A DNA stretch of 51,946 nucleotides, taken from a virus. Location: the IMG/VR virus record IMGVR_UViG_3300008952_000073, positions 1-51,946 of that record. One strand, given 5' to 3'. The notes below the pieces were generated by a model, which worked only from the letters and a program-made list of their open reading frames with translations, was not told where the DNA came from and ran no database searches. The translations under genes were made by a program, and so were the position numbers. Positions 1-51,718 of this stretch are shown piece after piece; the first letter of the stretch is position 1; the number at the start of each line of letters is the position of its first letter.

Positions 1-580
1 TCAAAGTATTTAATTTACCTATTCTAGCAGATCCTTGTCCTTTCTTCAATGATACTTGAACAAATTCTATACCTTTATCTTGAATTGTAACTTTACCATT
101 ATCATCCCATTTCATTATCGAATTAGGGAGTGCTTTCAATAAACCAGAAACAGTTCCCTTAGTTACAAATACTATATCAGCTGTATTTTGTTTACTCCCT
201 TTTTCTTTATATTGATCTGGAGTTTTACTGTAAAATTCATCTACACTTTTATGAATAATTTGTAATTTTGGACCCCAAGATACATTAGGCACTTTCTTAA
301 TATCTGCACCTATCAATTCGATAGCTTGAAGAAGAAATTCATCAGATTTAGTCTGACTGTGTAAATTCTTAATCCATTCCCTACCAACTGGAACAACTTC
401 TGGTTCCGATATTATTTTCTGAACCTCTTTCCAAGTAGGTAATGTTCTTGAACCTGAGATTTTTGCAACAATATAAACCCATGTTTCATATACAGCCTCG
501 GCGTCTACTCCACCACCTACAGCCTTAATAACTGCATCTACATCTGAGGCTTCAGTAATATAAGTCTTGAAAGACTTCAT
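1..580 (-). CDS. Late virion-type protein with capsid-targeting-like N-terminus (partial, 3' end outside window)
   Basis: 193 codons are visible from an ATG at 578-580; the gene runs off the left edge. The protein begins MKSFKTYITE followed by Ala, which closely resembles the capsid targeting sequence of T4 internal proteins (MKTYQEFIAE), where the prohead protease gp21 cuts after (I/L)-x-E. A TATAAATA late promoter lies upstream at 703-710, which fits a virion protein. The C-terminal visible part has ADIVF followed about 40 residues later by VSLKKG, loosely like the D...xxK spacing of PD-(D/E)XK nucleases but with Ser in place of the acidic residue. No family was recognised. Inference: a protein packaged in the head and perhaps injected with the DNA. 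Confidence 0.75.
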   Translation of the reverse strand, partial: MKSFKTYITEASDVDAVIKAVGGGVDAEAVYETWVYIVAKISGSRTLPTWKEVQKIISEPEVVPVGREWIKNLHSQTKSDEFLLQAIELIGADIKKVPNVSWGPKLQIIHKSVDEFYSKTPDQYKEKGSKQNTADIVFVTKGTVSGLLKALPNSIMKWDDNGKVTIQDKGIEFVQVSLKKGQGSARIGKLNTL

Positions 581-13909: not shown

Positions 13910-14359
13910 TTATTCAGAAATGATCTTGATTGATCTTTTCTCTTTACCCTCTGGGACAATTTTAGACATTGAGATTTTCAACATTCCATTTTTCATGGAT
14001 GCATTATCTACAATGACATCATCTGCCAGAGTAAACTTTTTGGTGAATTTACGAACAGCAATACCCTTATGAACATACTCGGGCTCCTTACTGTCTTTAA
14101 AAGGTTCACTATCTTTTGATGAGATAGTCAGGACATTGTTGGCATAGTCAATATCCAGATCTTCTTCCGAAAATCCAGCGACAGCCATCTCAATATCATA
14201 ACTGGTTTCATCAGTTTTAATTATATTGTATGGGGGAAAATTCTGATTTCCTTGAAAGGAATCAGTAAAGAAATCAGAAGTAATCTGATTTAACATGGAG
14301 TCAAATCCGACTCCAAACTTGGTGATCCGAAAAGGATCAAATTGAGCTTGCATAACCAT
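13910..14359 (-). CDS. Small heat shock protein Hsp20
   Basis: 149 residues with an alpha-crystallin domain (about 45-145): ETSYDIEMAVAGFSEEDLDIDYANN, VLTISSKD, then GIAVRKFTKKFTLADDV and NGMLKISM. Hsp20 chaperones hold unfolded proteins, and marine T4-like phages often encode one, perhaps for capsid or scaffold folding. A consensus late promoter lies at 14447-14454, the ribosome binding site AGGAG sits five bases before the ATG, and a strong terminator follows, so this is a single-gene late unit inserted between early genes. Confidence 0.92.
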   Translation of the reverse strand: MVMQAQFDPFRITKFGVGFDSMLNQITSDFFTDSFQGNQNFPPYNIIKTDETSYDIEMAVAGFSEEDLDIDYANNVLTISSKDSEPFKDSKEPEYVHKGIAVRKFTKKFTLADDVIVDNASMKNGMLKISMSKIVPEGKEKRSIKIISE

Positions 14360-14446: not shown

Positions 14447-14454
14447 TATTTATA
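14447..14454 (-). promoter_or_regulatory. T4-type late promoter for Hsp20
   Basis: Perfect TATAAATA on the minus strand, 88 bases upstream of the Hsp20 ATG and just before the stop codon region of the CobS-like gene. Confidence 0.85.
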
Positions 14455-23232: not shown

Positions 23233-24302
23233 GCTTCTAAATCGGCTGCTTCAATGTATAATGATTTTAATTTGGTCTTGATTCGTTCCTTGTCGAGAGT
23301 TGTCTCTATCTCTTCAACATACCGATCAAGAAGTGAAAGTGTATCCTGAGCTCCATCCACAATGTCATCATGAACAAAATCGGAGCTCAGGTCTGAAAAA
23401 TCTTCAACTATCTTTAAATCATGTAAGGAAATCTCCTTATACAGTCGATCCAAAAATTTGTCGTATGCATAATAATCATTTCGATTCTCCACGAACACCT
23501 TAACATATTTCTTATCAAATTTGGTTATGTCAAATTCTACATAGTCATGCTTAGTGTCATCATAATATATCTTCTCAAACATGGTATACTCGTTTGGAAT
23601 GAACTCTAATTCCCTAGTTTCCAAATCGAAAGTGTGAAACCCTTTTGGATCTCCACAATCTGCCCATGTCATTTCGTAAGGACACCCCAGATAATAAATC
23701 TGGCCATCATTGGATCTCTTATGGTAGTGTCCACTCAGAACCAGTTCAAAGTTCTTGAACAATTCCTTCTCAAATCCATGATCTGAAACCACCCCAGAGT
23801 GCATTTCAAATCCTCTGACTTCCAGATGACCCATACCAACTTGAGCTCCTGACTTGAGAACCTTGGTAGTCTCTGCATAGTTCTCGGCAGTGATCCAAGG
23901 AATGATTGCAATATCCTGTTTCTCAATAGAGATCACTTGAGGTTTATCATACACATACCAACAAGCCTCACTTCCAGGCATGGGTAACTCATTATAACAA
24001 TTTACTGCAAGTGTGTTCTTATAGTAAATGTCATGGTTTCCCACTATAAAATAACAAGGCAACCATGTTCCCATAAGACCACCTATGAACTTCTCACGAA
24101 AATCCATGGCCGTCTTATAGTTGATAAACTTCCTGCGATCTAGACAATCTCCCAGATGCATGACACCACAAATATCTTCAGAATTTTCCACTATGTATGG
24201 AAAGAACTGATTTTGATAGAAGTCAAAGAAATAGTCACTAAAAACCTGACTATCGTTCCGAGCCCCGAAATGAGTATCAGTAATGATTACGAGTTTCTTC
24301 AT
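23229..24302 (-). CDS. 47: Recombination nuclease subunit gp47 (Mre11/SbcD-like)
   Basis: 357 residues. Phosphoesterase with the metal motifs DTHFGARND, MHLGDCLDRR, VGNHDIYYKN and LSGHYHKRS in order. Forms the nuclease with gp46. The ATG overlaps the stop of the 56-residue gene upstream (ATGA), so the block gp55, small gene, 47, 46, def, GNAT is translationally linked. Confidence 0.96.
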   Translation of the reverse strand: MKKLVIITDTHFGARNDSQVFSDYFFDFYQNQFFPYIVENSEDICGVMHLGDCLDRRKFINYKTAMDFREKFIGGLMGTWLPCYFIVGNHDIYYKNTLAVNCYNELPMPGSEACWYVYDKPQVISIEKQDIAIIPWITAENYAETTKVLKSGAQVGMGHLEVRGFEMHSGVVSDHGFEKELFKNFELVLSGHYHKRSNDGQIYYLGCPYEMTWADCGDPKGFHTFDLETRELEFIPNEYTMFEKIYYDDTKHDYVEFDITKFDKKYVKVFVENRNDYYAYDKFLDRLYKEISLHDLKIVEDFSDLSSDFVHDDIVDGAQDTLSLLDRYVEEIETTLDKERIKTKLKSLYIEAADLEA

Positions 24303-24469
24303 TTTTTAACTAACGCATCAATGAAGTCCTCTAACCAAATTTTACCAGCTCCTGCTTCAGATTCTTCGATTGAGGCTTCAATCTCATGCAGCTCTGTAGC
24401 TGGAATATTTGCAGTGAAATCTGAAATCATTTTCTCGACCTCATCTACATACTTTTCAAATTTTGTCAT
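24299..24469 (-). CDS. Small acidic protein between gp55 and gp47
   Basis: 56 residues from ATG 24467-24469: starts MTKFEKYVDEVEKMIS and ends LEDFIDALVKK. Probably all helical and acidic. Its start overlaps the gp55 stop region by 4 bases and its stop overlaps the gp47 ATG. No family recognised; the tight coupling on both sides supports a real gene. Confidence 0.7.
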   Translation of the reverse strand: MTKFEKYVDEVEKMISDFTANIPATELHEIEASIEESEAGAGKIWLEDFIDALVKK

Positions 24470-27719: not shown

Positions 27720-29078
27720 TTACATAATGTTTGTAACCTTGGCACGCCTGTAGTAACAGTTGTCACCTACACCAAAAGGTGTGGAGTCTGTTCTGATAGC
27801 TCCAGTTGAACCGACTTTTGCGAATGGATTTTCTGCCATTCCGTAACGTGTCTTGAACGCAATCCTTGGTTGGAAAGTGTCTTCAGAGACGGCACGAACC
27901 ATTTGCAATGGAACGTATGGGCAGTAAAACAACCCAGCGTCATAAGCAGATGCACCACGATATCCGGCAACATACCAATCACTGGCACCATCGACAGCCG
28001 ATGCATAAGGATCAACATAGACTTTAATTCGTCCGTTGATTGTACCGGCAAATGTGCTTCCTGTTGGATCAACATTCAAGTTAGTTGACATTGCAGGTGC
28101 ATAGTCAAGTACTCCAGCCATTGACAGAGCAGATGCTGTGTCAGCGGAACACATCAGAATGTTTCCTTTTCCTCGGCGAGTTCTAATTCCGATTGCATTA
28201 CAATCTTTCTCAATTTGGAAAAGTAATCCTTTGAATTTTTCAACTGACCATCGACCATTAGAGTCAAGATCAAGATTGAAAACTCCACCTGAGGCTGTAC
28301 CTTGAGCACCAGTTTCGGCAGTCAAATAAATGGTACGGATAACTTCACGATTGATCTCCTGAAGAATCTCTTGACTCAGAATGTTGGACAACTCGGACTC
28401 AGCATCCAGACCATGAATAGCTTTCAGGTCTTGTGCGAGTTCCATTGTGTAACCGGCACGCAAAGCACGTGAGTTAGCAGTTACAGTTGCTTTCTCAATA
28501 GTAAATCCCATATCTTGGAAAGCAGTTCCACCCGATGCACCATAGGCTTCTACATTTGCTGTAGTATCACCTGGCTTTACGTTGTAGTCACCAGGAGTGT
28601 CTACACCATAAATGTCTGGTGTACCGGCTGCATTTGTAACAGGGGCATTTCCACCATTCAGGGCGCCTGGGTTTGTTCCGGCTTGGTCAGCGGAATATGT
28701 GGAGTTTGATCCAGAAGTATTAGCTTCGTCATGAAGTACTTCGGTATCTCCTGTAGTTCCACCACCGATTCTCGCTTTCATAGCGAAAATAAGTCCTGTA
28801 GGTCCACTCATAGGTTGGACACCGCACACATCGTATGCAATGAGACTTGGCATTGCACGGCGGACTAATGAAATAAGAACTGGGTCCCAATTGGAGATAG
28901 CTGACCCTGTAGACATATCAGCTTCTTGCAACATTTGGCGAGACTCTTTCAGTTCTCTTTCTTGGTTTTCCAAGACAACAGCGGTAACTGCACGCTTATA
29001 AGCATCGTTGATCTCTGGGAGATCGGGATGATTCAAAACTGGTTGCCACTTCTCTTGGAGTTGTTCTGAATTATACAT
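27720..29078 (-). CDS. 23: Major capsid protein gp23
   Basis: 452 residues (T4: 521). HK97-fold capsid protein. Typical text: PVLISLVRRAMPSLIAYDVCGVQPMSGPTGLIFAMK in parts, NREVIRTIYLTAETGAQG, and the C-terminal RPRIAFKTRYG-like FQPRIAFKTRYGMAENPF. The first 52 residues end in MLQE before ADMSTGS; this (L/I)-x-E site fits cleavage by gp21 to remove a propeptide, as in T4. AAGGAG lies five bases before the ATG. Confidence 0.97.
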   Translation of the reverse strand: MYNSEQLQEKWQPVLNHPDLPEINDAYKRAVTAVVLENQERELKESRQMLQEADMSTGSAISNWDPVLISLVRRAMPSLIAYDVCGVQPMSGPTGLIFAMKARIGGGTTGDTEVLHDEANTSGSNSTYSADQAGTNPGALNGGNAPVTNAAGTPDIYGVDTPGDYNVKPGDTTANVEAYGASGGTAFQDMGFTIEKATVTANSRALRAGYTMELAQDLKAIHGLDAESELSNILSQEILQEINREVIRTIYLTAETGAQGTASGGVFNLDLDSNGRWSVEKFKGLLFQIEKDCNAIGIRTRRGKGNILMCSADTASALSMAGVLDYAPAMSTNLNVDPTGSTFAGTINGRIKVYVDPYASAVDGASDWYVAGYRGASAYDAGLFYCPYVPLQMVRAVSEDTFQPRIAFKTRYGMAENPFAKVGSTGAIRTDSTPFGVGDNCYYRRAKVTNIM

Positions 29079-29103: not shown

Positions 29104-30273
29104 TTATTTTTTTGACCGCTTAACATCTTTTCCAATTGCACTCATATATTGTGCCATTGTACCAGATGTTTCTACGGGCGTTTCGGATTGTCCTTCTTCA
29201 GTAAGAACATTTTCAGTTTTTACTTCAGAGGTTCCAAAATAGCTTTCTCTGATTGTTTGAAGTTTACCTTTGTAGGTTTCTTCATCAGAAAATTCTACAT
29301 CCTCAACCAGACTTTGGAACTTCTCAGTTTCAGTATCAGTCATCCCATCAGCAACGGCAGAAATCATGGACTCTTTTACAAGTTCACCCTTCTGTTTTTT
29401 CAACTGGACATTTTCTTCCATCTGTTTGTTAAGTTTTTCCTCTAACTCTTCGATCTTCGTCAAGTTAGCTTCCAGAATGTCATACTTCTCATCTGGAACA
29501 TCAATATAGTGGTCTTCAAAAAGATTCTTCAGTCCACTAATGAAGTCTTCTGCAATTTCACCTTTGAGTCCACGCTCAATGGCTAATTGGTTGTCTTCCA
29601 TCCATTGTTCAACAACGTAATTCATGTAGTCATCAACCTTCTCAACTATGTCATTCATTGTTGATTCGGCCATGTCTTCCATTACCTTGTCGTTTTGTTC
29701 TTGAATTTTTTCAAGTTCTACACGGACTTTAGATTTAACTGCACTTTCAAAGATTGTTGCAGCTTTTGTCTTAAATTCTTCGGAAAGTTCTTCTCCGTCT
29801 ACGAGAGCGGTGACATCATCAGAAACATCAAGTCCATCAACTATTTGATCAATGGATTCTTTCTTGACTTTTTTCTCTTCTGATTCTTCTTCACCATCTT
29901 CGTCATCATCATCCTCATCTTCCTCTTCCTCGTCATCTTGTTCTAAGATTTGAGCTCCATAGATTTTGGCAAGATCTTCTTTCTTCAGACCTTTCATGTG
30001 GTCTACAAGACCTTGAAGAATTTCCGATTTCAGTTTAGGCATCTCTTTGATTTCCTCAACTTCCTCTTCTACTTCTTCAGTTTCTTCTGCAGCCATAGGT
30101 GCAGTACCTTTTGTTTTAGGAGCAGAGGCAGTAGGTCCACCCTGTGGCTTCTGCATATCGTGTGGTTGTTGTTTCAGTTTAGAATTACTGCCCTTTGTTT
30201 TAGGAGCAACAGCTTCCTCTACTGATTCTTCCTCAACCACCTGTTCCATCTCTTTATTGAGTTCTTCAGACAT
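29104..30273 (-). CDS. 22: Prohead scaffold protein gp22
   Basis: 389 residues, longer than T4 gp22 (269). Very acidic, with Glu/Asp runs in the first half (EEVEEEVEEIKE, QDDEEEEDEDDDDEDGEE) and long predicted helices after residue 170. Forms the prohead core and is digested by gp21 on maturation. The C-terminal ISAVADGMTDTETEKFQSLVEDVEF resembles T4 gp22. Own late promoter at 30305-30312. Confidence 0.92.
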   Translation of the reverse strand: MSEELNKEMEQVVEEESVEEAVAPKTKGSNSKLKQQPHDMQKPQGGPTASAPKTKGTAPMAAEETEEVEEEVEEIKEMPKLKSEILQGLVDHMKGLKKEDLAKIYGAQILEQDDEEEEDEDDDDEDGEEESEEKKVKKESIDQIVDGLDVSDDVTALVDGEELSEEFKTKAATIFESAVKSKVRVELEKIQEQNDKVMEDMAESTMNDIVEKVDDYMNYVVEQWMEDNQLAIERGLKGEIAEDFISGLKNLFEDHYIDVPDEKYDILEANLTKIEELEEKLNKQMEENVQLKKQKGELVKESMISAVADGMTDTETEKFQSLVEDVEFSDEETYKGKLQTIRESYFGTSEVKTENVLTEEGQSETPVETSGTMAQYMSAIGKDVKRSKK

Positions 30274-30304: not shown

Positions 30305-30312
30305 TATTTATA
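30305..30312 (-). promoter_or_regulatory. T4-type late promoter for gp22
   Basis: Perfect TATAAATA on the minus strand, 32 bases upstream of the gp22 ATG, overlapping the space after the gp21 stop. Confidence 0.85.
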
Positions 30313-30315
30313 AAA

Positions 30316-30936
30316 TTAGAGTTTTGAAAGGAACGATTCAAAGGCTTCTGCCTGTTTATTTGCGGATGCAAGTCTATGAATTCGAGCAACTTCAGCCTCT
30401 TTTATGATGCCGTTGTCCCAAATCCACTCCTTACCTTCCATAATTCCTTCCACAAACGCTTCAGGTGCTGAAGGATCTGCAACAATATCCCCTGCTGTCG
30501 CAAGATAAAAATCATCTTTGACATAGTTCGTGTTACCCTTCTTTTCAAGTGTTCCCATTCCTCTACTAGAGACTCCAAGTTTTGCACCAGCATTTAGCAA
30601 TTCCTTGACAATCTTCCCATTAGGAGTATCAAGAATCTTTGCTTTCCCGACAATATTCTTACCATCGGGCACCAGTTCCTCAATAAGATGAGAAACCCTA
30701 TCCAGATTGACAGTTGGTCCTTCTGGATGACCTAGTTCTCCGAAAGCTCGTTTCTTCTCAACCAGTTCTTTGTTGTATCTTTTGACTTCTTTTTCCAGTA
30801 CACCAAAAGGATAAATTCGACCATTTCTATTTTTAGTCTCAGCTTGCATGAAAACCCCTTGGATTTTCATATCTTTACCATTCTTCCCTTCGGTAAGGAT
30901 TTCAAAATCATCATACATTTCCGTAATTAATTTCAT
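30316..30936 (-). CDS. 21: Prohead protease gp21
   Basis: 206 residues (T4: 212). Serine protease of the S78 type that matures the head. Catalytic His in FGELGHPEG and Ser in KLGVSSRGMG are visible, with VSHLIEELVPDG between. The N-terminus has two sites of its own cutting pattern, LITE and ILTE within the first 16 residues, fitting self-processing. The cleavage rule (I/L-x-E) underlies the predictions for other proteins in this window. Confidence 0.95.
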   Translation of the reverse strand: MKLITEMYDDFEILTEGKNGKDMKIQGVFMQAETKNRNGRIYPFGVLEKEVKRYNKELVEKKRAFGELGHPEGPTVNLDRVSHLIEELVPDGKNIVGKAKILDTPNGKIVKELLNAGAKLGVSSRGMGTLEKKGNTNYVKDDFYLATAGDIVADPSAPEAFVEGIMEGKEWIWDNGIIKEAEVARIHRLASANKQAEAFESFLSKL

Positions 30937-31312: not shown

Positions 31313-31564
31313 CTAGATTGTAAGCATTTCTTTGTCAAAATATTTCATAATATCCTTTTCTTTGACACCATTTTTCTTGGCGACCTTTGTTACAGTCTTA
31401 TCAAATGTACTCAAAAAATCAGCTGGTTTTTTCTCCAAGGTAATATACAATTCATCAACTGCCGTCTTCATTTTAGGAGTTAATTTTTTGTATTCTGCTG
31501 ATTTTTTATGTTCATCCTTTTCTATAACATTTTGATGAAACTCACTAAACTTCTTCACCGGCAT
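31313..31564 (-). CDS. Prohead core protein, gp68 position
   Basis: 83 residues from ATG 31562-31564 (AGGA five bases before); the frame opens further upstream to 31582. All-helical, Lys-rich: MPVKKFSEFHQNVIEKDEH at the start resembles the capsid targeting style. In T4 the order is 20-67-68-21, so this gene stands where 68 is. Homology to gp68 cannot be confirmed by eye. Confidence 0.6.
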   Translation of the reverse strand: MPVKKFSEFHQNVIEKDEHKKSAEYKKLTPKMKTAVDELYITLEKKPADFLSTFDKTVTKVAKKNGVKEKDIMKYFDKEMLTI

Positions 31565-31727
31565 CTGCATCCTGTGGCACATGGTGCTTAACTAAAGTGT
31601 TTGCGATTTCCACTCGTTTTAAATCCAATGCATCACCAACTTTTTGAGCAATAACTTCTTTAAATGCACCTTCAGCCTCAATCTTATTGTCATCTATCAA
31701 GGCATTTATCATATTTGGTATAGCCAT
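31545..31727 (-). CDS. 67: Prohead core protein gp67-like
   Basis: 60 residues. The run INALIDDNKIEAEGAFKEVIAQKV resembles the helical start of T4 gp67 (IEAIKSNDLVAARKLFAEAM), and the acidic tail QDADAGEEV is a short form of the gp67 acidic end. Position directly after gp20 also fits. Overlaps the next gene by 20 bases. Confidence 0.75.
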   Translation of the reverse strand: MAIPNMINALIDDNKIEAEGAFKEVIAQKVGDALDLKRVEIANTLVKHHVPQDADAGEEV

Positions 31728-33319: not shown

Positions 33320-33327
33320 TATTTATA
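33320..33327 (-). promoter_or_regulatory. T4-type late promoter for gp20
   Basis: Perfect TATAAATA on the minus strand, 24 bases upstream of the gp20 ATG and just after the gp19 stop. Confidence 0.85.
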
Positions 33328-35941: not shown

Positions 35942-36244
35942 ATGACCCATTATGAGAAATACAAAGATACCATCAAAGAAGGTGTAAAGAAAGCTCGTAG
36001 AAAAAGGGAGATTTGGATCAATGAATATCTTGCCGATAAACATTGCAAATATTGTGGGGAATCAGAAACGTGTACGCTTGTCTTCCACCCTGACGATCAA
36101 AAAATCAGAATCTTTTCAAGATCGAAAGGACTCAGAGAAGGACTCAGAGTACCGATTCTGGAATGGATACAAAAGAATATCATTGTATGTATGAATTGCA
36201 GAAGTAAATTGGATAATGATATAGAACTCTCACCAATCCTCTAA
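35942..36244 (+). CDS. HNH-like zinc protein, opposite strand
   Basis: 100 residues, the only recognised plus-strand gene. CKYCGES near residue 36 and VCMNC near 84 form two CxxC pairs framing TLVFHPDDQKI, which resembles the HNH/treble-clef proteins of phages (CxxCG...L.xHH) but with HP where HH is expected. The N-terminus is very basic (KKARRKREIW). It sits between gp17 and gp18, tail to tail with gp17 and overlapping it by 15 bases. A homing-endonuclease-like insertion is plausible; activity is uncertain because the second His is missing. Confidence 0.7.
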   Translation: MTHYEKYKDTIKEGVKKARRKREIWINEYLADKHCKYCGESETCTLVFHPDDQKIRIFSRSKGLREGLRVPILEWIQKNIIVCMNCRSKLDNDIELSPIL

Positions 36245-37891
36245 CCATTCCTTATTTGAATGAACTACAGGAGAAAATGTAGATCCATATTCGTCTATAG
36301 ATTCTCCTATTTGTATACCATCTTCATCATGAATTCCATCTAATACAAATCCAAAAGGGGCCATGTCCTGTTCTACTAGTTCCTCTTTTTCTTTCCAGAG
36401 TTGTTGACGAATATCCATGTTAGTCAATTCTTTAAAATAAGTCTGATCGGATAACCAACCAAACAGAACCATACACATTGCAAGATCATCTGTTGAACCT
36501 TCATCAGCTTCAAAAGATTGTCCTTTAGATATGAAAGTGGTCAATTCTACAATGGTATCAAAATCCTGTATAAGAATCTTATCCCCCTCCAACATGGTCT
36601 TGAAATTAGAACATCCAACCTTCTTGAGGGCCTTAGTTGTTCTTACACCCAACTGTGCCTTCTTTCCAGAGAAACCACCTCCTGCAATTTGACCATTTCG
36701 ACCATGCATAGTAGTCATAATCATATTATCATATTCTAAATCAAACTGAAGTGCATCTGCAACCTGTCCTCCAATATCATTGATCTCTGTTAAGACATAG
36801 GCTAAATTATATGCATTTGCTAATTTATGAATAATGGTAGGAAAATTCATAGGTTTTATTTCATTATCCCTATAAACTGCAACCTGTCTATAAGGTATAT
36901 CTGAAACATCCATTACTGTAAATGCAGAATAATCACTATTAATACCTCTTGATACATCTGCAATTAGAACATAAGAATGTTCTGGAAGTGGATTTTCATA
37001 GACTTTCAACCCTGCATTAACCTTCAAAGGCTCTCTATGAGTCAATGCTCGGAGTTTTGAGGGATGTATGAGGGTATTTACGGACCCAAGAAACTCACAT
37101 TCAAACTCCACGTTGAACTGTTGTTCACTTGTGTTCTTGATAGTTTCTTGTTTCCACTTCTCATCTCTCCCAGGCACCTCACTCCAATGTACCTCAATAG
37201 GAATATAAGAATTTCTACCATTCTCAGCATCATTCCACATCTTGTAAAACATATTCATTCCATGTGGAGTACTTACCATCATGACCTTGGATGTTTTACC
37301 AGAGGAAATTGTAGGATAGACTGAACTGAAAAACTGTTCGGCTATGTTATTAGGAACGTAGGCAAACTCATCAAGAAAAATGATGTTGTAAGAACCACCT
37401 CTGACTGCACTTGAGGATGTTGCACTTGCAAGAATCTTGGAGCCATTTTCCAGTTCAAGAGATCCCTTGTTCCAAGTCATCACCCCTTGTTGCAACCACT
37501 TTGGTAGATGCTCGTATGCGAGTTGTAGCCTTCCTAAGAGATCCCTTGCGACTGCGGCTTTATTAGCCAAAATGGCCACATTAACTGTAGGATTAAACAG
37601 ACAATAATGCAGCAGATATGCAATAATCGTTGTGGATTTACCAGATTGTCTTGGGAGTTTACAGATAGAGAAACGATTGGTATGAAAGGTTTGAACCATG
37701 TCTCTTTGAAAAGGATAGAGATTAAATGGAACAAGGCCTTCATCAATACTTACTATCTTAATATAGTTTTCGATGAAGTATGCAGGGTCATCCTGACATC
37801 GAGCATACTCAACAATTTGTTCCTGCGTAAACTCGATTTGGACATTCGCTCTCTTGAGATTGGGATTCCCAAGATATACATTATCAGACAT
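36230..37891 (-). CDS. 17: Terminase large subunit gp17
   Basis: 553 residues (T4: 610). Packaging motor and nuclease. Walker A in KLPRQSGKSTT, Walker B IIFLDEFAYVP, coupling motif VSTPHG, and nuclease Asp in LIADVSRGINSDYSAF. The start overlaps the upstream gene by 8 bases. In T4 it directly follows gene 16; here four genes come between. Confidence 0.97.
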   Translation of the reverse strand: MSDNVYLGNPNLKRANVQIEFTQEQIVEYARCQDDPAYFIENYIKIVSIDEGLVPFNLYPFQRDMVQTFHTNRFSICKLPRQSGKSTTIIAYLLHYCLFNPTVNVAILANKAAVARDLLGRLQLAYEHLPKWLQQGVMTWNKGSLELENGSKILASATSSSAVRGGSYNIIFLDEFAYVPNNIAEQFFSSVYPTISSGKTSKVMMVSTPHGMNMFYKMWNDAENGRNSYIPIEVHWSEVPGRDEKWKQETIKNTSEQQFNVEFECEFLGSVNTLIHPSKLRALTHREPLKVNAGLKVYENPLPEHSYVLIADVSRGINSDYSAFTVMDVSDIPYRQVAVYRDNEIKPMNFPTIIHKLANAYNLAYVLTEINDIGGQVADALQFDLEYDNMIMTTMHGRNGQIAGGGFSGKKAQLGVRTTKALKKVGCSNFKTMLEGDKILIQDFDTIVELTTFISKGQSFEADEGSTDDLAMCMVLFGWLSDQTYFKELTNMDIRQQLWKEKEELVEQDMAPFGFVLDGIHDEDGIQIGESIDEYGSTFSPVVHSNKEWLEDW

Positions 37892-38813
37892 TTTTTATTT
37901 TAGTTGTCTTTTGAATATATCTTTCTAAGTTCCATATATCATCATATCGCATAATAGGAAATCCATGAATAGTATCGCCATCCTCATAACTATGAGAATA
38001 TGCAGGAGTAACGTGTACTTTATTAACTACAAAATTATTTACCACTATTTCATCCCATTGTGATTGTTCTTTACCCTTTTCATATCTAAATGTCCTATTC
38101 ATTGCATAATCATAAAACAACGATTGTAGAACTTTAGAATTTTTCTTCATCACTTTCTCTATTCCATCAAGATAATCTTTAATGGCCATTCTAAATGCGA
38201 AACCTCGTGTCTTGGGCCTTTGTGAGTTAATATTAGTACCAATCATTTCCCATGCATGGAATGGATCTTTCTTTATGTCTTTTACACTCCCTAAAATGGG
38301 ATCTGGCTCTATCCATTCATCATACTCATTAACAAGTCGTTTAAACATACTAATTAAATCTCTTTTCATTCCTACCAATTTTTTACCACCACCTAATCCT
38401 CCACCATCAATACCTTGTCTAAGCGTTTGAAATGACATATATCTTCTGCCAGAGTTATCTACTATAGTATTAAGGTCATCTGGTCCAGCCACAAGAATGT
38501 CACCAGTTAATTCTGCAACAAAACCACCATCAGTCTGAATACCTGACTCTAAAAAATAACTATCCATATTAAAAAATGCAGATATTGATTTTTTTGATTT
38601 CTGCATCTTTCTTAGTTGGTCTATACCACTCTCATCGGTAATATGAAATACCTTAGAACGTATTTTATCAGGCCATAATCTTTCAATTATTGATGAACCT
38701 AATGGTATCTTCACATCATCAACTGAATGTCTTCTAAAATTAAATAGCATAGAAGACAAACTACCCTGCCGTAATACATTTTCTGAGATAAAAGATTTAA
38801 ATGATTTTAACAT
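37884..38813 (-). CDS. Putative packaged effector, paralogue 1 (possible ADP-ribosyltransferase fold)
   Basis: 309 residues. Starts MLKSFKSFISE then NVLRQ: a capsid-targeting-like signal with an (I)-x-E cleavage site at 9-11. Shared with the 331-residue neighbour: P-L-x-S-S-I-x-x-R-x-W-P, VFHITDESG (His57), ISAFF (77-81), GIQTDGG, SGRRY, IKDYLDG and WDEIVVNNF (Glu255). The order His...hydrophobic ISAFF strand...Glu before a strand recalls the H-Y-E layout of ADP-ribosyltransferases. T4 Alt is a packaged ADP-ribosyltransferase, so the idea is coherent, but the fold is inferred. Late expression from the structural operon. Confidence 0.7.
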   Translation of the reverse strand: MLKSFKSFISENVLRQGSLSSMLFNFRRHSVDDVKIPLGSSIIERLWPDKIRSKVFHITDESGIDQLRKMQKSKKSISAFFNMDSYFLESGIQTDGGFVAELTGDILVAGPDDLNTIVDNSGRRYMSFQTLRQGIDGGGLGGGKKLVGMKRDLISMFKRLVNEYDEWIEPDPILGSVKDIKKDPFHAWEMIGTNINSQRPKTRGFAFRMAIKDYLDGIEKVMKKNSKVLQSLFYDYAMNRTFRYEKGKEQSQWDEIVVNNFVVNKVHVTPAYSHSYEDGDTIHGFPIMRYDDIWNLERYIQKTTKIKNV

Positions 38814-38825
38814 CCTCTCTATTGT

Positions 38826-38833
38826 TATTTAGA
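38826..38833 (-). promoter_or_regulatory. Late promoter variant before paralogue 1
   Basis: TCTAAATA on the minus strand, only 13 bases before the ATG at 38813, which leaves a very short leader. Weak candidate. Confidence 0.3.
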
Positions 38834-38837
38834 TCGT

Positions 38838-39326
38838 TTATCCTCTCACTCCGACTGTAGCACCTACAGATCGAATTTTCATTTTTCTAGAATTAGATCT
38901 TCTCAATTTTCTGAGTAGACTTTCTTTTCTAGTGGAACCTTTGAGTCTACTGGCCTCTGCTCGACCTCGATTTTTAGACTCATCTTCAAATCCGACAATC
39001 TTCCCTCCTTTATGAGAAGCATCTTTTCCATCACCATTTCCGTAAGTTCCTTTATCACGATTAAACTTTACAAGAGCCGCTCGATATTTTATTCTCTCAG
39101 GAGATGATTGAAACTTCTTGTATTCTGCTTTATAGTCTCGTTTTGCAGATTCTATTGCAAGAACCTTAGTTCCATTTCGATCCATTTTAACTGATTTAAG
39201 ACCAAAATGTTTTTTGAGATGTTGAATAACATCAGCAACAGATAACATTTTATTCAATCCCTTCAGATAAGAATTGATCTGCACCAGTGAAACTTTACTA
39301 TCCCAATATTCTTTAAATGTTTTCAT
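38838..39326 (-). CDS. Basic HNH-like protein with capsid-targeting-like start
   Basis: 162 residues, strongly basic. Begins MKTFKEYWDSKVS, like the targeting peptide but without the I/L-x-E site. The middle, YRAALVKFNRDKGTYGNGDGKDASHKGGK, then SKNRGRAEASRLKG, follows a phage HNH-like family (arginine-rich helix, GDGKDxxHK, SxxNR), with a His in SHKGG and Asn in KNR. The C-terminus is Arg/Lys-rich. Probably a packaged DNA-binding protein, nuclease activity unknown. Overlaps the 331-residue gene by 4 bases. Confidence 0.65.
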   Translation of the reverse strand: MKTFKEYWDSKVSLVQINSYLKGLNKMLSVADVIQHLKKHFGLKSVKMDRNGTKVLAIESAKRDYKAEYKKFQSSPERIKYRAALVKFNRDKGTYGNGDGKDASHKGGKIVGFEDESKNRGRAEASRLKGSTRKESLLRKLRRSNSRKMKIRSVGATVGVRG

Positions 39327-40318
39327 TTTTTACCTAATGCTTTCAAGACCTCTGCTTGTCGTTTTGCCAAATCATCTGCTGGGTTAGATTTCTTCTTCGC
39401 CTCACCAGCGTCTTTCTTTGCAACATCTCTAATATACTGTTCCAAATTATTTCTAGAAATTGGTTGAAACTTCAATTTATCTTTTGTTACTTCATCCTTA
39501 AAGTCATTAAGCAAGAAATTCTGTCCGTATGCAACAATCTCATCATCAGGGCTCCAATTATCACTGTCATCTATACCAAAGACCTTTTTGATTTTAAAAT
39601 TATTTACTACAATCTCATCCCAAGCCTCTTCAGTTCTCCTCAGATTCAAATAATTTGTCAACATTCCTCTGAGATGGTTTGCATTCTTTTTATAGATTGA
39701 TTCAACTCCATCCAAATAATCTTTAATAATCAAATGAAGGGTTTTCTTATCATTTTCTCTAGCCTTCATTCCAAGATTCATCCAATGAATATAATATCTA
39801 CCTTTCTGAAATCTAGGGGTACTGGACACATTCATAACCTTTTGCCAGTATTTGTTTAATAATTCTCCTACTAAATCCTGCAATCCTTTTTGATACTTAC
39901 TAAGATCCTTCTCACCAAACCTACCCTTCATAAATTCTAATTGCACCCAGCGTCTTCCTGAAGTGTCTGGGGCACTCATTACATCTTGATTGAACGCACC
40001 AAGGATGTTTGCATCTAACTCTATTACCACACCTCCACTTGTCTGTATACCCTGTCCAAAATAATTAGGCCTCATCTCAAAGAATGCTGAAATACCAGCT
40101 TTCTTACCCTGCATCTTTTTAATATTTCGATACCCAAGTTCGTTTGTCACATGGAAAACAGTAGCTCGAACTTCTTTGGGCCAAATCCTTTTCATTATTG
40201 AACTAGACAATGGCATCCAAAATGCATTGAAACCTATAGAAGATCCCTGTGCAACATCAAAGAGTCTCGTAGAAAGACTCTGTTGCCACATCATCTGTTC
40301 TTTGAAGGTTCTCATCAA
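39323..40318 (-). CDS. Putative packaged effector, paralogue 2
   Basis: 331 residues. Paralogue of the protein at 37884-38813, conserved in VFHVTNELG (His56), ISAFF (76-80), GIQTSGGVVIEL, DTSGRRW, IKDYLDG and WDEIVVNNF (Glu235). The start MMRTFKEQMMW keeps the targeting flavour but lacks the I-x-E site. The C-terminus adds a Lys-rich tail (KKDAGEAKKKSNPADDLAKR). A divergent pair kept side by side around the HNH-like gene suggests two targets. Confidence 0.7.
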   Translation of the reverse strand: MMRTFKEQMMWQQSLSTRLFDVAQGSSIGFNAFWMPLSSSIMKRIWPKEVRATVFHVTNELGYRNIKKMQGKKAGISAFFEMRPNYFGQGIQTSGGVVIELDANILGAFNQDVMSAPDTSGRRWVQLEFMKGRFGEKDLSKYQKGLQDLVGELLNKYWQKVMNVSSTPRFQKGRYYIHWMNLGMKARENDKKTLHLIIKDYLDGVESIYKKNANHLRGMLTNYLNLRRTEEAWDEIVVNNFKIKKVFGIDDSDNWSPDDEIVAYGQNFLLNDFKDEVTKDKLKFQPISRNNLEQYIRDVAKKDAGEAKKKSNPADDLAKRQAEVLKALGKK

Positions 40319-40566
40319 TCTAACTTTATTTCGTAGTTATAAGCAACTACTCCTTTTGTAGAACCTGGCATCTTTCTCAGATACACATGAATGGTTGAAC
40401 TTCCAGTATGATGACCCATAGTAAAGTCAGCCTTACCTTTTATCATCTTTCGATCATCAGTTGCATTGACAGTAATCCTTGCAAGTTTCCTTCGCTTGAT
40501 CTCATCGGCAACATACCTATCAGTCCTATCATCGTATTCTTTGATAAATTCTTTGTATGTTTTCAT
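40315..40566 (-). CDS. Small protein with capsid-targeting sequence
   Basis: 83 residues. The first ten, MKTYKEFIKE, differ from the T4 internal-protein signal MKTYQEFIAE at only two positions, so gp21 cleavage after Glu10 is predicted. The rest is basic and beta-like (IHVYLRKMPGS, VVAYNYEIKLD). By analogy with T4 IPI-IPIII it would be injected with the DNA; IPI protects T4 DNA from a host restriction enzyme. No further family recognised. Confidence 0.75.
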   Translation of the reverse strand: MKTYKEFIKEYDDRTDRYVADEIKRRKLARITVNATDDRKMIKGKADFTMGHHTGSSTIHVYLRKMPGSTKGVVAYNYEIKLD

Positions 40567-40940
40567 TTTCCCTTTATAAGCTTTTGGAGTTCTGCCGTGG
40601 ACCCGACAAAGAGTGCATTGGTCACATTCTTAGGTCCAGAGGATTCTCTCACCTTTTTCTTGGTTGTTTGTAGATTGACCAACTTCTCAGTATTCTCTGC
40701 GTTGGTCTTCAACAACTGTCCTGCGACCTCGTAGGCTCTAGGATGGTCAGTCTCTTTTGCAACCTGAAGAATTCCATCAAGTGCATCCTGACCTCGTTCT
40801 ATTATATGATAAAGATTTTCCCGACTATATTTGAAGTCATCGTTGTCTTCATCCGTAGTCTGTACCCTTGGGATTGCAGGGACAGTTGTGGTGGCTACTG
40901 CCTTTTCTGCAATACCCAAGAGTTCATCAATTTTTTCCAT
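40563..40940 (-). CDS. 16: Terminase small subunit gp16
   Basis: 125 residues (T4: 164). Regulates gp17. The central helices YSRENLYHIIERGQDALDGILQVAKET and HPRAYEVAGQLLKTNAENTEKLVNLQ match T4 gp16 (HPRAYEVAGQLIKN). Overlaps the 83-residue gene by 4 bases. Confidence 0.93.
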   Translation of the reverse strand: MEKIDELLGIAEKAVATTTVPAIPRVQTTDEDNDDFKYSRENLYHIIERGQDALDGILQVAKETDHPRAYEVAGQLLKTNAENTEKLVNLQTTKKKVRESSGPKNVTNALFVGSTAELQKLIKGK

Positions 40941-40944
40941 ACCA

Positions 40945-42762
40945 TTATGATGTTATCTGCGACCAATCAATAAATAAAGATGCAAGAAGTTTATTCAAAC
41001 CACCACCTCCAGCTTGAGTCCAATTTCCAGTTCTGGCAATAGGAATTGCTTTAATGTGTCTAATAGTATCTAACCCACCCCCAAGAGTAGGAGTTGTTGC
41101 TCCAGTTCCATTTACACCATGTTCTGTATTATTAGACCCTATATTAGTTGCATATTGTCCTGTTACTTTCCAATCATCTAATACAAGTAAATATACTGAT
41201 TCTTTATCTGCAGCTGAAGCAGGAGTAAATACTTGATTTGTATAATTACCTCCATCTCCAAAACCTAAATTATGATACTTACTTGAATTTGTACCTGTAA
41301 ATCCATTTTTAACATGAACATATCCAACTACCAGAACAGTATGTCCTATTGTTGAGGTTGGTGAACTTGCATCATAATTCGGAGAACCTTCTCCATTAGG
41401 AGAAGCATCACTACCGGCATATGCACCATTTGCACTTGCCCACTCATAAAATGAAATTGGAAAATTTGTTAATTGTATATTACCACTTGCATCCGTTCCC
41501 ATTGTTTCTGGTGCAAGTGGAGCTATTGTTGTAGTAGTTCCTGCCTTGTCATATTGATATCTCTTTAAATCCCAATGAGCCCATGATGCAATAAATGGTC
41601 TATTTGCATCTAATTCTGCTTTAATATTACTCCATGCAGTTGTTGGTGAACCCTCTAACCAACCCTTTGAAGCTGCACCAGTTCCTGCTGGGGGAGAAGT
41701 CCAAACAGAAGTATCTTGATTCCATGCAAGACCCATCGCAGAATCTAATGATGCAGAAGTATATCCAGCCTTAAGCATAAATTGTTTAAACCCAATATAA
41801 AAATCTGCAATAGGTGTACCTGTAAATGCAGTCCCAGCCGTACCATCAGTCGCAACTGTTGATAAAGTTGCATCCTTGGCTCCCCCATTGTTGGTATTCA
41901 AATACCAACCAATATCAGTCAAAGAACCACTTGCGGTATTATATGCATATGTTGAATTTGCACCAGAACTATCTGCTCGTCCAGTATTTTGAAACTGATG
42001 ACTATGCCAAGTATTTGTACCTATTGCAGTTGTCAAAGGCCATATAGAAACACTAGAAAAAGAACCAGATTTTTTCGCTTTAAAATAACCAACCCAATTT
42101 GCCATTGCAGTTGGGACACACCATGCATCAGCCTCTGCACCATTCACATTACCAGACTGGCCATCAGCTTGAGAACTAGGATCTATCCACCAAGCAGGCA
42201 TAGTATCTATCAATTTTGTATCTAAATATCCACCAAATTCTGTACTCAAATTTGAAGAAGAAAGCCTCAATCTTGCATTATTGTGTATATGAGCTCCAGT
42301 TCCTCCCAAAGTAGAATTCCATCGTTGATTTGTAGAATCATACATGAATTTAACTTCACCAAATCTACCCCCACGATTTTTAATAAGTATGGATTTTTGA
42401 TTATCAAAATATTGACTAGTTTCATTTCCGTCTGGCCATTTTGGATTAGGATTGGCACTACTTGGATTAACTGTCTGATTATCTATATTATGACTAGCAG
42501 TAATCGCAATTTCATTTGTTTTACTAGTCTGATTTCCAATATCCTTCATAACAACTTCATCTCCATCTACAGGATTAGCAGGAAGTGCAATATGAACACC
42601 CAATTTATGTTGATCCGTTCCTGTTACTCCTTTTATTGTAGAATCAGTCCTAACCAAAATTGTTTCATTTGATTCTGTATCGGTATATCTATCTCCTGTG
42701 AGTTTAACTCTCTTTTCGGTATGATAGTCAACCTTATAATTTTTATATGCTGAATGTGACAT
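40945..42762 (-). CDS. Virion/fibre protein with C39-like cysteine peptidase domain
   Basis: 605 residues. The first 150 residues look like a fibre domain (LPANPVDGDEVVMKDIGNQTS). From about 205 the sequence has a papain-like peptidase pattern: AWCVPTAMANW (Cys215), IKAELDANRPFIASW, TIGHTVLVVGYV (His474) and LLVLDDW (Asp529/530), the Cys-His-Asp order of C39/papain-like domains with a long insert. It may cut a host surface or a fibre chaperone, or be a binding domain. Located between gp16 and the cupredoxin-bearing protein, expressed late. Confidence 0.75.
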   Translation of the reverse strand: MSHSAYKNYKVDYHTEKRVKLTGDRYTDTESNETILVRTDSTIKGVTGTDQHKLGVHIALPANPVDGDEVVMKDIGNQTSKTNEIAITASHNIDNQTVNPSSANPNPKWPDGNETSQYFDNQKSILIKNRGGRFGEVKFMYDSTNQRWNSTLGGTGAHIHNNARLRLSSSNLSTEFGGYLDTKLIDTMPAWWIDPSSQADGQSGNVNGAEADAWCVPTAMANWVGYFKAKKSGSFSSVSIWPLTTAIGTNTWHSHQFQNTGRADSSGANSTYAYNTASGSLTDIGWYLNTNNGGAKDATLSTVATDGTAGTAFTGTPIADFYIGFKQFMLKAGYTSASLDSAMGLAWNQDTSVWTSPPAGTGAASKGWLEGSPTTAWSNIKAELDANRPFIASWAHWDLKRYQYDKAGTTTTIAPLAPETMGTDASGNIQLTNFPISFYEWASANGAYAGSDASPNGEGSPNYDASSPTSTIGHTVLVVGYVHVKNGFTGTNSSKYHNLGFGDGGNYTNQVFTPASAADKESVYLLVLDDWKVTGQYATNIGSNNTEHGVNGTGATTPTLGGGLDTIRHIKAIPIARTGNWTQAGGGGLNKLLASLFIDWSQITS

Positions 42763-49803: not shown

Positions 49804-51348
49804 TTAAAAATGTCCTCCACTGATAGAAACATCACCATAAGTTGTACCGAATGGTTGTTGATCCTTCCATTTGGATGAAGAATTTTGATATATTAAAAGA
49901 GAATTATCTGGTATTGTTGAAGCAATACTTGTGTCTGACATTGAACTAATTGCTCCACCTTCAGCACCAGCAGCTGCCATAATATTCCATTTTGTATTGT
50001 CCGTTCCTGGCGTTACATTTTGACTTGTTGCAACTGCAATATATGAAGATCCATTATAATAAACAGCTTCATTTAATCCATATACTGTAGTATTTGACCA
50101 TCCACCTTTCCAAGTTATCTCACCAGTTGCTCCAGTTGCACCTCTTGGTATTGTGAAATCTAAAGTTGCAGTTGTAGAATTTCCAGAATTAGTAACTTCT
50201 GCATCTGTGCCAGGTAAACTTGTAGTGACTGAACCTACTGAGACTGTAGCAGCTGATCCTTGAGCGCCATCTACTCCTCTATTCCCTCTAGGTATTGTAA
50301 ACTGTAAACTCGTTTGATTTGGTGTGCCTGTTTGTGCGACAGATGCATCAGTACCTTCTCCACCTGTGATTGTTGTAAGAATTTGAATTGTTGCATCTAC
50401 TCCATCAGCACCAGCGGGTCCAGTTGCACCTTGTGGTCCTTGAACTCCAGTTGTTCCAGGCTGTCCGTCTTCACCATCGGCCCCTGCCGGTCCAGCTGGT
50501 CCTGCGGGCCCCGTTGCACCAGTATCTCCTTGTGGTCCTTGTGTTCCAGTTGCTCCTGTATCTCCTTTTGGTCCTGTTGGACCAGTTAAACCAATTTGTC
50601 CTTGTGGTCCTGTTGGCCCTGCGGCTCCATCTGTTCCATCATTTCCATCTGCACCAGCAGCTCCAGTTGGTCCTGCTGGTCCTTGTGGTCCAGTGGCTCC
50701 ATCTGCTCCTGCTGGTCCTTGTGGTCCTGTAGCTCCAGTTGGACCAGTATCTCCTTCTGGTCCCTGAGCTCCAGAATCTCCTTGTGGTCCTTCTGGTCCC
50801 TGAGCTCCTTGAGCACCAGTTGCACCTGGCGATCCTGGCGCTCCGTCCGATCCTGCTGGTCCTTGAGGTCCAGCCGGTCCTGTTACTGATGTTCCATCTT
50901 GTCCATCTGCACCAGCTGGGCCCTGAGCTCCTTGAGCACCAGTTGCACCAGAATCTCCTTTTTCACCCCTTGGTCCAGCGGGTCCAACTGCTCCTGTTGC
51001 TCCTGTAGACCCAGCTGTTCCAGTTGCACCTGTAGATCCAACATCTCCCTTGGATACTATTACACTCCACTGAGATGTATTTTGATCTGGTCTGAGATCC
51101 GAATTTCCTTGTATACAAATATAAGAACTTCCATCATAATATACAACTTGATTCACTACATAGGTAGTCGCAGAACTCCAAGTTCCTGCAAAGGACATAT
51201 CTCCATCTGCACCCTGAATGCCCTCAACCGCCATTCGTGTAACTTGAGGTACTGGAGCACCAACCTGAGTAGATGCGGCTACTTCACTTGCAGTTGTAGT
51301 TGTTCCTGAAATAGATCCAGGCGATGATAAAGTTGCATTAACTGGCAT
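49804..51348 (-). CDS. Collagen-like fibre protein with two CBM5/12-like modules
   Basis: 514 residues. Residues about 101-323 are Gly-X-Y repeats ([13 protein letters not shown] style) that should form a collagen-like triple helix. On each side is a similar module: [21 protein letters not shown] (about 53-98) and [21 protein letters not shown] (about 414-460), both followed by W at the end, resembling carbohydrate-binding modules 5/12. Two TIPRG segments follow the repeat. Probably an adhesive fibre. Confidence 0.85.
50380..51048 (-). repeat. Collagen-type repeat region
   Basis: Nine-base Gly-X-Y units, read on the plus strand as repeated forms of TCCTTGTGGTCCTG and related phrases. Copies are near-identical and in frame, so length change by slippage or recombination is expected. 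Confidence 0.9.
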
Positions 51349-51686
51349 TACTGAGTTACCCTTGGATTAATTGTTACGATACCTTCAACAACTCTGGTCT
51401 TGGTTCCACCAGAAGTTTGAGTTATAACTGCATCATAAACGTATCGACCATGAGGTATAGCTGCCGTTTGTGTATTGGAAAGTGCAAGAGTGAATTGTCC
51501 TGCTGAAGCTTCTGTAGTCGTAGTTGTAAACGCTACAGTTGCAGAAGAAGATTCGTAAGTTTTACGAATTTGAGCTGCGTGAGTATAACCAGAAAGGTTT
51601 ACAGCACTCCCTGTACTATCTGTAACTGTTACAGTAGTCGTGAAGTCTGCTCCTGCATCAATGAATATATTTGAAATGACCGCCAT
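51348..51686 (-). CDS. Small beta-sandwich structural protein
   Basis: 112 residues. [33 protein letters not shown] in parts, [27 protein letters not shown] and [14 protein letters not shown] give a compact Ig-like pattern often seen as a baseplate or fibre-attachment protein (BppU N-terminal type). First gene after the late promoter at 51711-51718, so it leads the fibre-neck-terminase operon. Confidence 0.75.
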
Positions 51687-51710: not shown

Positions 51711-51718
51711 TATTTATA
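51711..51718 (-). promoter_or_regulatory. T4-type late promoter for the fibre-neck operon
   Basis: Perfect TATAAATA on the minus strand, 25 bases before the ATG at 51686. No other consensus late box or terminator was noted between here and gp17. Confidence 0.85.

Follow-up and report, generated by a model that had tools for sequence, protein, structure and literature searches.

Genes with N-termini resembling the T4 capsid targeting sequence lie between the terminase genes of a T4-like phage

The gene cassette between TerS and TerL

IMG/VR virus record IMGVR_UViG_3300008952_000073 is a linear record of 51,946 bases from a marine T4-like phage, and the whole of that stretch is referred to here as the window. 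On its minus strand, between the genes for the small and large terminase subunits (TerS and TerL), lies a cassette of four genes, most of which begin with a peptide (hereafter the tag) resembling the capsid targeting sequence (CTS) of the T4 internal proteins (IPs). A reading of the sequence alone had placed four genes between the terminase subunits, and their coordinates, 37884-40566 on the minus strand, bear this out; in T4 itself, genes 16 and 17 are neighbours. In order of transcription the genes are:

40563-40940, minus strand: TerS, gp16-like (phrog_445, 1.8e-41; PF11053, 5.3e-4, under the Pfam cut-off)
40315-40566, minus strand: D83, a small body behind the tag MKTYKEFIKE (40537-40566); leave-out score 11.5
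39323-40315, minus strand: C331, a predicted ADP-ribosyltransferase-fold protein with the degraded tag MRTFKEQ (MRTFKEQMM); tag score -1.2
38838-39326, minus strand: B162, with the targeting-only tag MKTFKEYWDS (39297-39326) and a phrog_6437 domain at residues 61-126 (7e-14); score 9.3
37884-38813, minus strand: A309, with the tag MLKSFKSFISE (38781-38813) and a predicted ADP-ribosyltransferase-fold body; score 18.7
36230-37891, minus strand: TerL, gp17-like (PF03237, 3.7e-22; PF17289, 2.8e-12)

The C331 coordinates count from an ATG, and the list of open reading frames (ORFs) begins this gene one codon earlier, at a TTG. Overlaps amount to 4 bases for TerS/D83, 1 for D83/C331, 4 for C331/B162 and 8 for A309/TerL, and B162 and A309 are spaced 24 bases apart.

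The window TerL is closest to that of Pelagibacter phage HTVC008M (69.6%), followed by those of the Melnitz phages (67.3%) and of cyanophages. Genes inserted between TerS and TerL are ordinary in this clade: two other genes occupy the gap in HTVC008M and one each in Melnitz, Mosig and AG-345-L05, and in S-SSM5 gnd, zwf and others precede gp17, its gp16 lying outside the stretch examined. The gp16-gp17 interval was named a hot spot by Sullivan et al. 2010, citing Millard 2009 (PMC3037559). The cassette shares its place and the variability of its genes with this hot spot of cyanomyoviruses, and differs in that most gap genes in the window carry the tag.

Tag-like starts also occur at two places in the window outside the gap:

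1-580, minus strand: fifth tagged gene, truncated by the window start, beginning MKSFKTYITEA..., tag at 551-580; score 25.2
31313-31582, minus strand: small gene between the portal and protease genes, with a weak tag-like start, MKKFSEFHQNVIEKD, from an inner GTG; score 6.9

Resemblance of the tags to the T4 capsid targeting sequence

The scores listed above come from a leave-out tag model, in which the families of the ADP-ribosyltransferase (ART)-like proteins, D83 and B162 were excluded from training and 19 clusters were kept. When the 62 ORFs of the window are ranked by this model, the truncated gene at 580..1 comes first, followed by A309, D83, B162 and the small gene at 31313-31582, so that three of the four cassette genes rise above the rest, C331 being the exception. 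The body of the truncated gene retrieved no weighty family match (best PHROG 0.063, best Pfam 0.1).

Mutants of T4 indicate that targeting depends mainly on residues 4 and 7 of the CTS and processing on residues 8 and 10, and that Asp at residue 10 blocks processing while targeting is kept (PMC9026906). Aromatic residues stand at N-terminal positions 4 and 7 in D83, B162, the truncated gene and, offset by one, A309, and C331 is without them; I or L at position 8 together with E at position 10 is present in D83, A309 and the truncated gene and absent from B162 and C331. By the T4 residue rule, therefore, D83, A309 and the truncated gene product would be targeted and processed, B162 would be targeted only, and C331 would hardly be targeted. 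The sequence-only reading had two cassette genes keeping the I-x-E site, and these are indeed D83 (MKTYKEFIKE) and A309 (MLKSFKSFISE). It had also taken all four starts for variants of the T4 signal, which at the scores above stands for D83, A309 and B162 and fails for C331. Relatives of C331 begin MLRFKQYINE (locus L004), [M]ISFKSFVTE (L005) and [M]KSFKSFVTE (L006).

The resemblance was also found in the opposite direction. With a matrix built from uncultured marine tags only, one per crude cluster (29 clusters), 254 T4 ORFs were ranked with gp61.1 first (22.7), IPIII and IPII behind it at 16.9 each, and IPI in fourth place at 5.8. The marine tags and the T4 internal proteins have in common a ten-residue N-terminus with aromatics at 4 and 7, I or L at 8 and E at 10 (IPII and IPIII), a single tag type borne on unrelated bodies, and a prohead protease encoded in the genome. 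Unlike in T4, the tag of marine T4-like phages is borne by small proteins and by enzymes too, encoded in tandem sets; some of the tagged genes lie in the TerS-TerL gap; a targeting-only class exists; and packaging in the window phage, which is uncultured, is a prediction. T4 IPI inhibits a restriction enzyme and IPIII is required on one E. coli strain (PMC3012670, PMC9391042), and D83 and other small tagged proteins may, by analogy, have roles of this kind.

T4 gp61.1 (NC_000866, 18966-19130) is annotated as hypothetical and starts MKTFKEFIKED. Since this is the best tag in T4, gp61.1 may, judging from its N-terminus, be an unrecognised head protein.

Distribution of the tag in related loci

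Across loci L001-L055 and the window, a set that includes the control phages L008-L012, a strict tag pattern was found at 76 of 440 distinct ORF N-termini vs 3 of 1921 internal methionines, counts that are not independent since relatives were merged across contigs only if their last 40 residues agree. L or I precedes the E in 70 of the 76 tags, at a position where the pattern permits eight residues, and the E lies at a spacing of one residue in 62 tags and of two in 14. A pattern-free offset test gave a similar picture: F or Y with an aromatic residue three positions on occurs at position 4 in 95 of the 448 non-ART ORFs of ART-bearing contigs, vs 3-10 of them at eleven other offsets, and when L/I and E are required too, 44 remain at position 4 vs 0-3 elsewhere. 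The corresponding counts were 10 of 393 in the controls HTVC008M and Mosig (0 with L/I and E), 13 of 628 in S-SSM5, AG-345-L05 and Melnitz (6 with L/I and E) and 9 of 271 in T4 (3 with L/I and E). The presence of the tag at gene starts is not due to chance. Tag counts made with a DNA pattern in 14 records were over-strict, with 7 of the 14 records matched and known tags missed; window ORF 24299-24469 (MTKFEKYVDEVEK) fits this DNA pattern and was not counted as tagged.

The tag is joined to many unrelated bodies. Among ten tagged proteins of related contigs that were picked by eye and searched against families are a tRNA nucleotidyltransferase (PF01743, 2.2e-18), a DUF6267 protein (1.7e-112), an NT5C-like nucleotidase (2.1e-5), an HD_4 protein (4.9e-15), a P-loop/zeta-like kinase (7.2e-8) and a RimK-like ATP-grasp protein (9.5e-29), and the tagged proteins as a whole form 29 crude clusters, several of them ART subgroups. 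The same body may also occur with different starts. DUF6267 is tagged in related contigs and in Melnitz and has an untagged start in the cyanophages S-8S55, P-HM1, Syn9 and S-SSM5, and the D83 body follows MKTYKEFIKE, MKTFKELIKE, MKTYKELIKE, IKTYKDFLKE, MKKFKEYLEE, MITFKE and MKTYKEFIQ. Classed by a script rule, the D83-family starts are full in 5 cases, aromatic-only in 11 and neither in 10 (28 of 29 loci examined, 2 not found), the last class comprising forms whose start is extended or has L at position 7. The starts of proteins with phrog_6437, the domain of B162, are full in 2 cases, aromatic-only in 9 and untagged in 52 (63 read; 78 loci from the best 80), and targeting-only starts in relatives include MITFKEYDDR and MISFKEYTRD.

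A search for the motif beside gp16 and gp17 in related genomes, suggested in the earlier reading, found tagged genes in the gap of L001, L002, L016, L017, L151 and L165. The gap contents differ: D83, ART, B162 and ART in the window and L001; a tagged 399-residue protein, an ART and an untagged 423-residue protein in L016 and L017; and, in L151 and L165, four small genes that are mainly tagged or tag-like, without an ART. Where both terminases were found by motif (controls and near-repeats included), 6 of 23 gap genes are full by the script rule, 6 are targeting-only and 11 are untagged. Further gene mixes are present beside the single terminase gene in L003, L005, L006 and L015. Cytidylyltransferase-like genes in L132 (535-1566) and L157 (4639-5907) start SKTYREFITE (after M) and MKTYQRFMTE, near the tag of T4 IPIII.

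Tagged proteins in published cyanophage virions

We compared tag scores with the virion proteomes of four cultured cyanophages, S-CREM2, S-SM1, S-SCSM1 and S-SZBM1, which were chosen for a virion list naming a cytidylyltransferase or NMNAT after the tag had already been seen on that family. ORFs of at least 40 residues were scored and checked against annotation, with a cut-off of 6 that was first applied with another matrix. ORFs scoring at least 6 that overlap annotated genes in another frame or on the other strand were dropped (2 in S-CREM2, 1 in S-SM1 and 3 in S-SZBM1). Seven of the nine remaining genes were detected in virions (chance of at least seven of nine, 1.7e-4); as the phages were reached via the cytidylyltransferase, the count with that family left out, three of five (P 0.053), is the fairer one. 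For S-CREM2 alone, the count without the cytidylyltransferase is three of three (P 0.012).

All four genes scoring at least 6 among the 221 features of S-CREM2 are in its 52-protein virion list (PMC10665884), namely a cytidylyltransferase (MKNFSSFLTEA), an APH/ChoK-like kinase (MKRFDAFLTEE, from GTG), a SAM hydrolase (MKDFDSFLEEF) and ORF136 (MQTFSMFFSED), and the next scorer, ORF13 (MKDLHSFLTEQ, 3.8), is likewise listed. The sole annotated gene of S-SM1 to reach 6, which is also the best of its 219 ORFs, is the T4-GC190 cytidylyltransferase, MKKFSAFLNEAE, which was found in S-SM1 virions (PMC3037559). At the top of the 90 ORFs from S-SCSM1 (60 of 229 kb scored) stands the NMNAT SSCSM1_91 (QFG06348.1, MKSFLQFLKEA), also detected in virions (PMC9602691). 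One of three scorers was detected for S-SZBM1, a cytidylyltransferase (MRFRQFIIEA) in the 30-protein virion list (PMC9146016); the other two are adjacent genes:

S-SZBM1 OL473597, 122311-123125: SSZBM1_191 and SSZBM1_192, the latter counted from annotation

The tag matrix selects the very enzymes known from cyanophage virions (T4-GC190 cytidylyltransferase/NMNAT, SAM hydrolase and APH/ChoK-like kinase). Their authors report presence in the virion and, in the available parts of those papers, name no targeting signal; as far as those parts go, the relatives' published proteomes give presence and not cleavage. A Cas9-like nuclease reported in virions of S-CREM2 (OR473000, 7704-10313) has a tag-like stretch, LRFASFMAEA, that lies inside the protein (at about residues 17-26) and not at its start.

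The ADP-ribosyltransferase-like proteins A309 and C331

A309 and C331 are paralogues, 34% identical, and a search with their family alignment found 39 loci in IMG/VR. The 42 family sequences share R52, H57, K74, G91, E101, D113, D119, G122, R124, W253, D254 and E255, among others, with R52, H57, E101 and E255, which may include active-site residues, invariant. The structural model of A309 has a predicted local distance difference test (pLDDT) score of 87.6, with residues 1-15 under 50, i.e., with a disordered tag, and that of C331 has a pLDDT of 84.5. Viewed by eye, the strands with H-x-T, with ISAFF and, last, with W-D-E are reminiscent of DarT-type enzymes.

Sequence searches with A309 and C331 in Pfam, PHROGs (best 0.0032), PADLOC and PDB sequences gave no match naming an ART, the best match of A309 in a BFVD fold search had an E of 0.12, and tblastn of C331 against cultured phages retrieved no match. 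In a second look at the models, the top three rows for A309 were RNA polymerase chains on a helical stretch (Z 4.7-4.3), followed by DarT 7omu (Z 4.2, 128 aligned, root-mean-square deviation (rmsd) 4.3) and later by PARP14 (at most 3.4) and TreTu (3.0), all weak matches. The first five rows for C331 were Chromobacterium violaceum effector entries, also weak (Z 5.7-5.3; 8htf: 152 aligned, rmsd 4.4), one of which bears the title mono-ADP-ribosyltransferase CteC with NAD+; the other four, entitled 'effector ... in complex with ubiquitin', we take to be the same protein. Later rows were DarT (4.6), RNA polymerase (4.4), TreTu (4.2), PARP14 (4.0) and APE0204/Tpt1 (3.9). Rows matching helices only were set aside by judgement, among them E. 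coli RNA polymerase, which for A309 (about residues 128-240, Z 4.7-4.3) stands above DarT, and 3cex for C331 (Z 4.2). With two weak-match models converging on one superfamily, both proteins are predicted to have an ADP-ribosyltransferase fold, though the matches are individually weak.

T4 Alt is a head-packed ADP-ribosyltransferase (PMC9026906), and the cassette resembles it in having a predicted ADP-ribosyltransferase with a head-packaging signal; as predicted ADP-ribosyltransferases, A309 and C331 would act like Alt. They are unlike Alt in that the tag is of the IP type and that, among the structures searched, their models are closest to CteC, DarT, TreTu and PARP. A further difference is seen in L040 (2002-5637), where each of four tandem ART-family genes bears a separate MKRFKEY tag. 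A scan of bacterial genomes with the ART alignment found three loci; judged by eye, the neighbours are tagged and phage-like in L127 and L128, and L126 mixes phage-like genes with transporter- and metabolism-like ones.

Other features of the window

The window also encodes a prohead protease and other head proteins:

30316-30936, minus strand: prohead protease, gp21-like, the expected processing enzyme (PF03420 Peptidase_S77, 3.2e-34)
29104-30273, minus strand: gp22-like scaffold, prohead core (PF25623, 2.4e-68)
27720-29078, minus strand: major capsid protein gp23 (PF07068, 2e-132)

LQE52-A in gp23, read by eye, is a candidate maturation site. Upstream of TerS, a 605-residue protein (40945-42762) contains a C39-peptidase-like stretch (PF13529, 1.2e-4, slightly below the cut-off), and a small HNH endonuclease-like gene (35942-36244, plus strand; phrog_2255, 3.9e-7) lies between TerL and the tail sheath gene.

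Sigma-70-like sites in the window are at chance level. So is TATAAATA, the T4 late promoter word, with 5 occurrences vs 3.7 expected. They lie at 703-710, 14447-14454, 30305-30312, 33320-33327 and 51711-51718, all on the minus strand, at distances upstream of 32 bases for gp22, 24 for gp20, 25 for 51348-51686, 88 for 13910-14359 and 123 for the tagged gene at 580.

Interpretation and alternatives

We consider the cassette to be probably a small exchangeable set of proteins that are packed in the head and injected, judging from T4 and, for packaging, from relatives. The N-terminal peptide with aromatics at 4 and 7 would direct its protein to the prohead core in the manner of the CTS of T4 internal proteins, and peptides with L or I at 8 and E at 10 would be cut off by the gp21-type protease that the phage itself encodes. 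The packed proteins would remain with the DNA, enter the next host and act ahead of phage gene expression. D83 and A309 would be targeted and processed, B162 targeted and left unprocessed, and C331 would be a decayed or weakly targeted copy. For the window phage itself, we infer packaging, cleavage, injection, enzyme activity and targets. The head-packaging signal that had been proposed for the whole cassette has good support in D83 and A309, is likely in B162 and is not upheld for C331 as now read, on the basis of positional enrichment, the finding of T4 IPs by a marine matrix, and the seven of nine (three of five) virion detections.

Several results weigh against this interpretation. C331 scores only -1.2, and B162 is without a cleavage site. 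Without the cytidylyltransferase family, the virion count shrinks to the three of five given above, and SSZBM1_191 (MKSFKSFLSES) and SSZBM1_192 (MKTFKQYITEA), which have excellent tags and lie in the TerS-TerL gap, are absent from the 30-protein virion list of S-SZBM1. The authors of the S-CREM2 and S-SCSM1 studies (S-SCSM1: PMC9602691) regard such enzymes as possibly lysate carry-over. The tag itself is not universal or free of look-alikes: two ORFs in HTVC008M and none in Mosig score at least 6, the clamp loader start MKKTFQTFVDEGNIPNLLL scores 16.0 in Melnitz and its S-SSM5 counterpart 15.0 as false positives, and the UvsX start, another look-alike, scores 3.6. When alternative starts are admitted and the leave-out matrix is used, T4 IPI drops to fifth of 271 (6.1). 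For the ART prediction, Foldseek with the A309 and C331 models returned nothing significant (best E 1.1 and 1.0), the 25 Pfam families examined of the 27 matched by any of the 42 members include no ART, nor do 4 PADLOC families, the distance being possibly too great, and both ART models derive from one alignment.

Could the shared N-terminus be a translational or regulatory feature, such as a start-region codon bias or a recombination seam for gene swapping, rather than a protein address? Short overlaps join most neighbouring genes, gene sets vary among relatives and the tag codons are A-rich, as this would lead one to expect; however, what is conserved is the protein, at spaced positions whose codons vary, the conserved residues are those important in T4, and in S-CREM2 the tag coincides with virion detection. 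We give this explanation very little credence. We find it similarly improbable that the peptides dock their proteins to the terminase or a late assembly factor, in which case the proteins would aid packaging instead of being cargo. Tagged genes do lie between TerS and TerL in the window and in the six related loci named above, adjoin one terminase in L003, L005-L007, L015, L018 and L019 (the other being off the stretch), and the two S-SZBM1 gap genes are missing from the virion list; yet tagged genes also occur away from terminases, at 580..1 in the window and beside DUF6267 and cytidylyltransferase genes, and the tagged bodies include tRNA nucleotidyltransferase, NT5C, HD_4 and RimK-like proteins.

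Two further alternatives concern parts of the cassette. The tag may once have been functional and the window cassette be decaying, with only D83 and A309 still packed, which we regard as unlikely. The C331 tag is four residues shorter than those of its L004 and L005 relatives and B162 has no processing site, but relatives repeatedly have targeting-only forms of differing sequence (MITFKEYDDR and MISFKEYTRD), which points to a class in use, and the C331 body is full length and models well. Doubts are somewhat greater over the fold: A309 and C331 could, as a minority possibility, be another alpha/beta protein of similar strand order and not ADP-ribosyltransferases. The lack of a significant Foldseek match and of an ART family by sequence would fit this, as would the ranking of E. 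coli RNA polymerase rows, on a helical stretch, above DarT for A309; against it, the A309 model picks DarT, PARP14 and TreTu and the C331 model CteC, DarT, TreTu, PARP14 and Tpt1 (from a shared alignment), and R52, H57, E101 and E255 are invariant across the 42 sequences.

Implications for marine T4-like phages

The CTS has been proposed as a route for T4-like phages to acquire varied proteins (PMC9026906), so the principle of CTS-borne varied cargo is already known. Among the papers listed in our searches of the open PMC literature, which does not extend to subscription papers and preprints, none is presented in its title or abstract as dealing with a capsid targeting sequence of cyanophages or pelagiphages. 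What seems new is the reach of the CTS into marine phages, the load of enzymes and the tie to cyanophage virion proteomes. A broader reading, to which we lean only slightly, is that a single capsid-import code extends from coliphage T4 to ocean phages and that marine lineages deliver swappable enzymes with it into the host before phage genes are expressed, with gp16-gp17 as one loading site; the enzymes in question are the predicted ADP-ribosyltransferases, tRNA nucleotidyltransferase, HD hydrolase, nucleotidase, RimK-like ligase, cytidylyltransferase, SAM hydrolase and kinases.

If the broader reading is true, virion content would be readable from genome sequence alone, and a ten-residue signature would predict the proteins that ocean phages carry in their heads and inject. 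It would explain virion-associated enzymes that proteome papers gave as possible cargo or possible carry-over, and would supply a list of candidates for first-strike effectors and for counter-defence proteins. The cassette also points to a putatively head-packed ADP-ribosyltransferase-like family without a match in the curated families searched.

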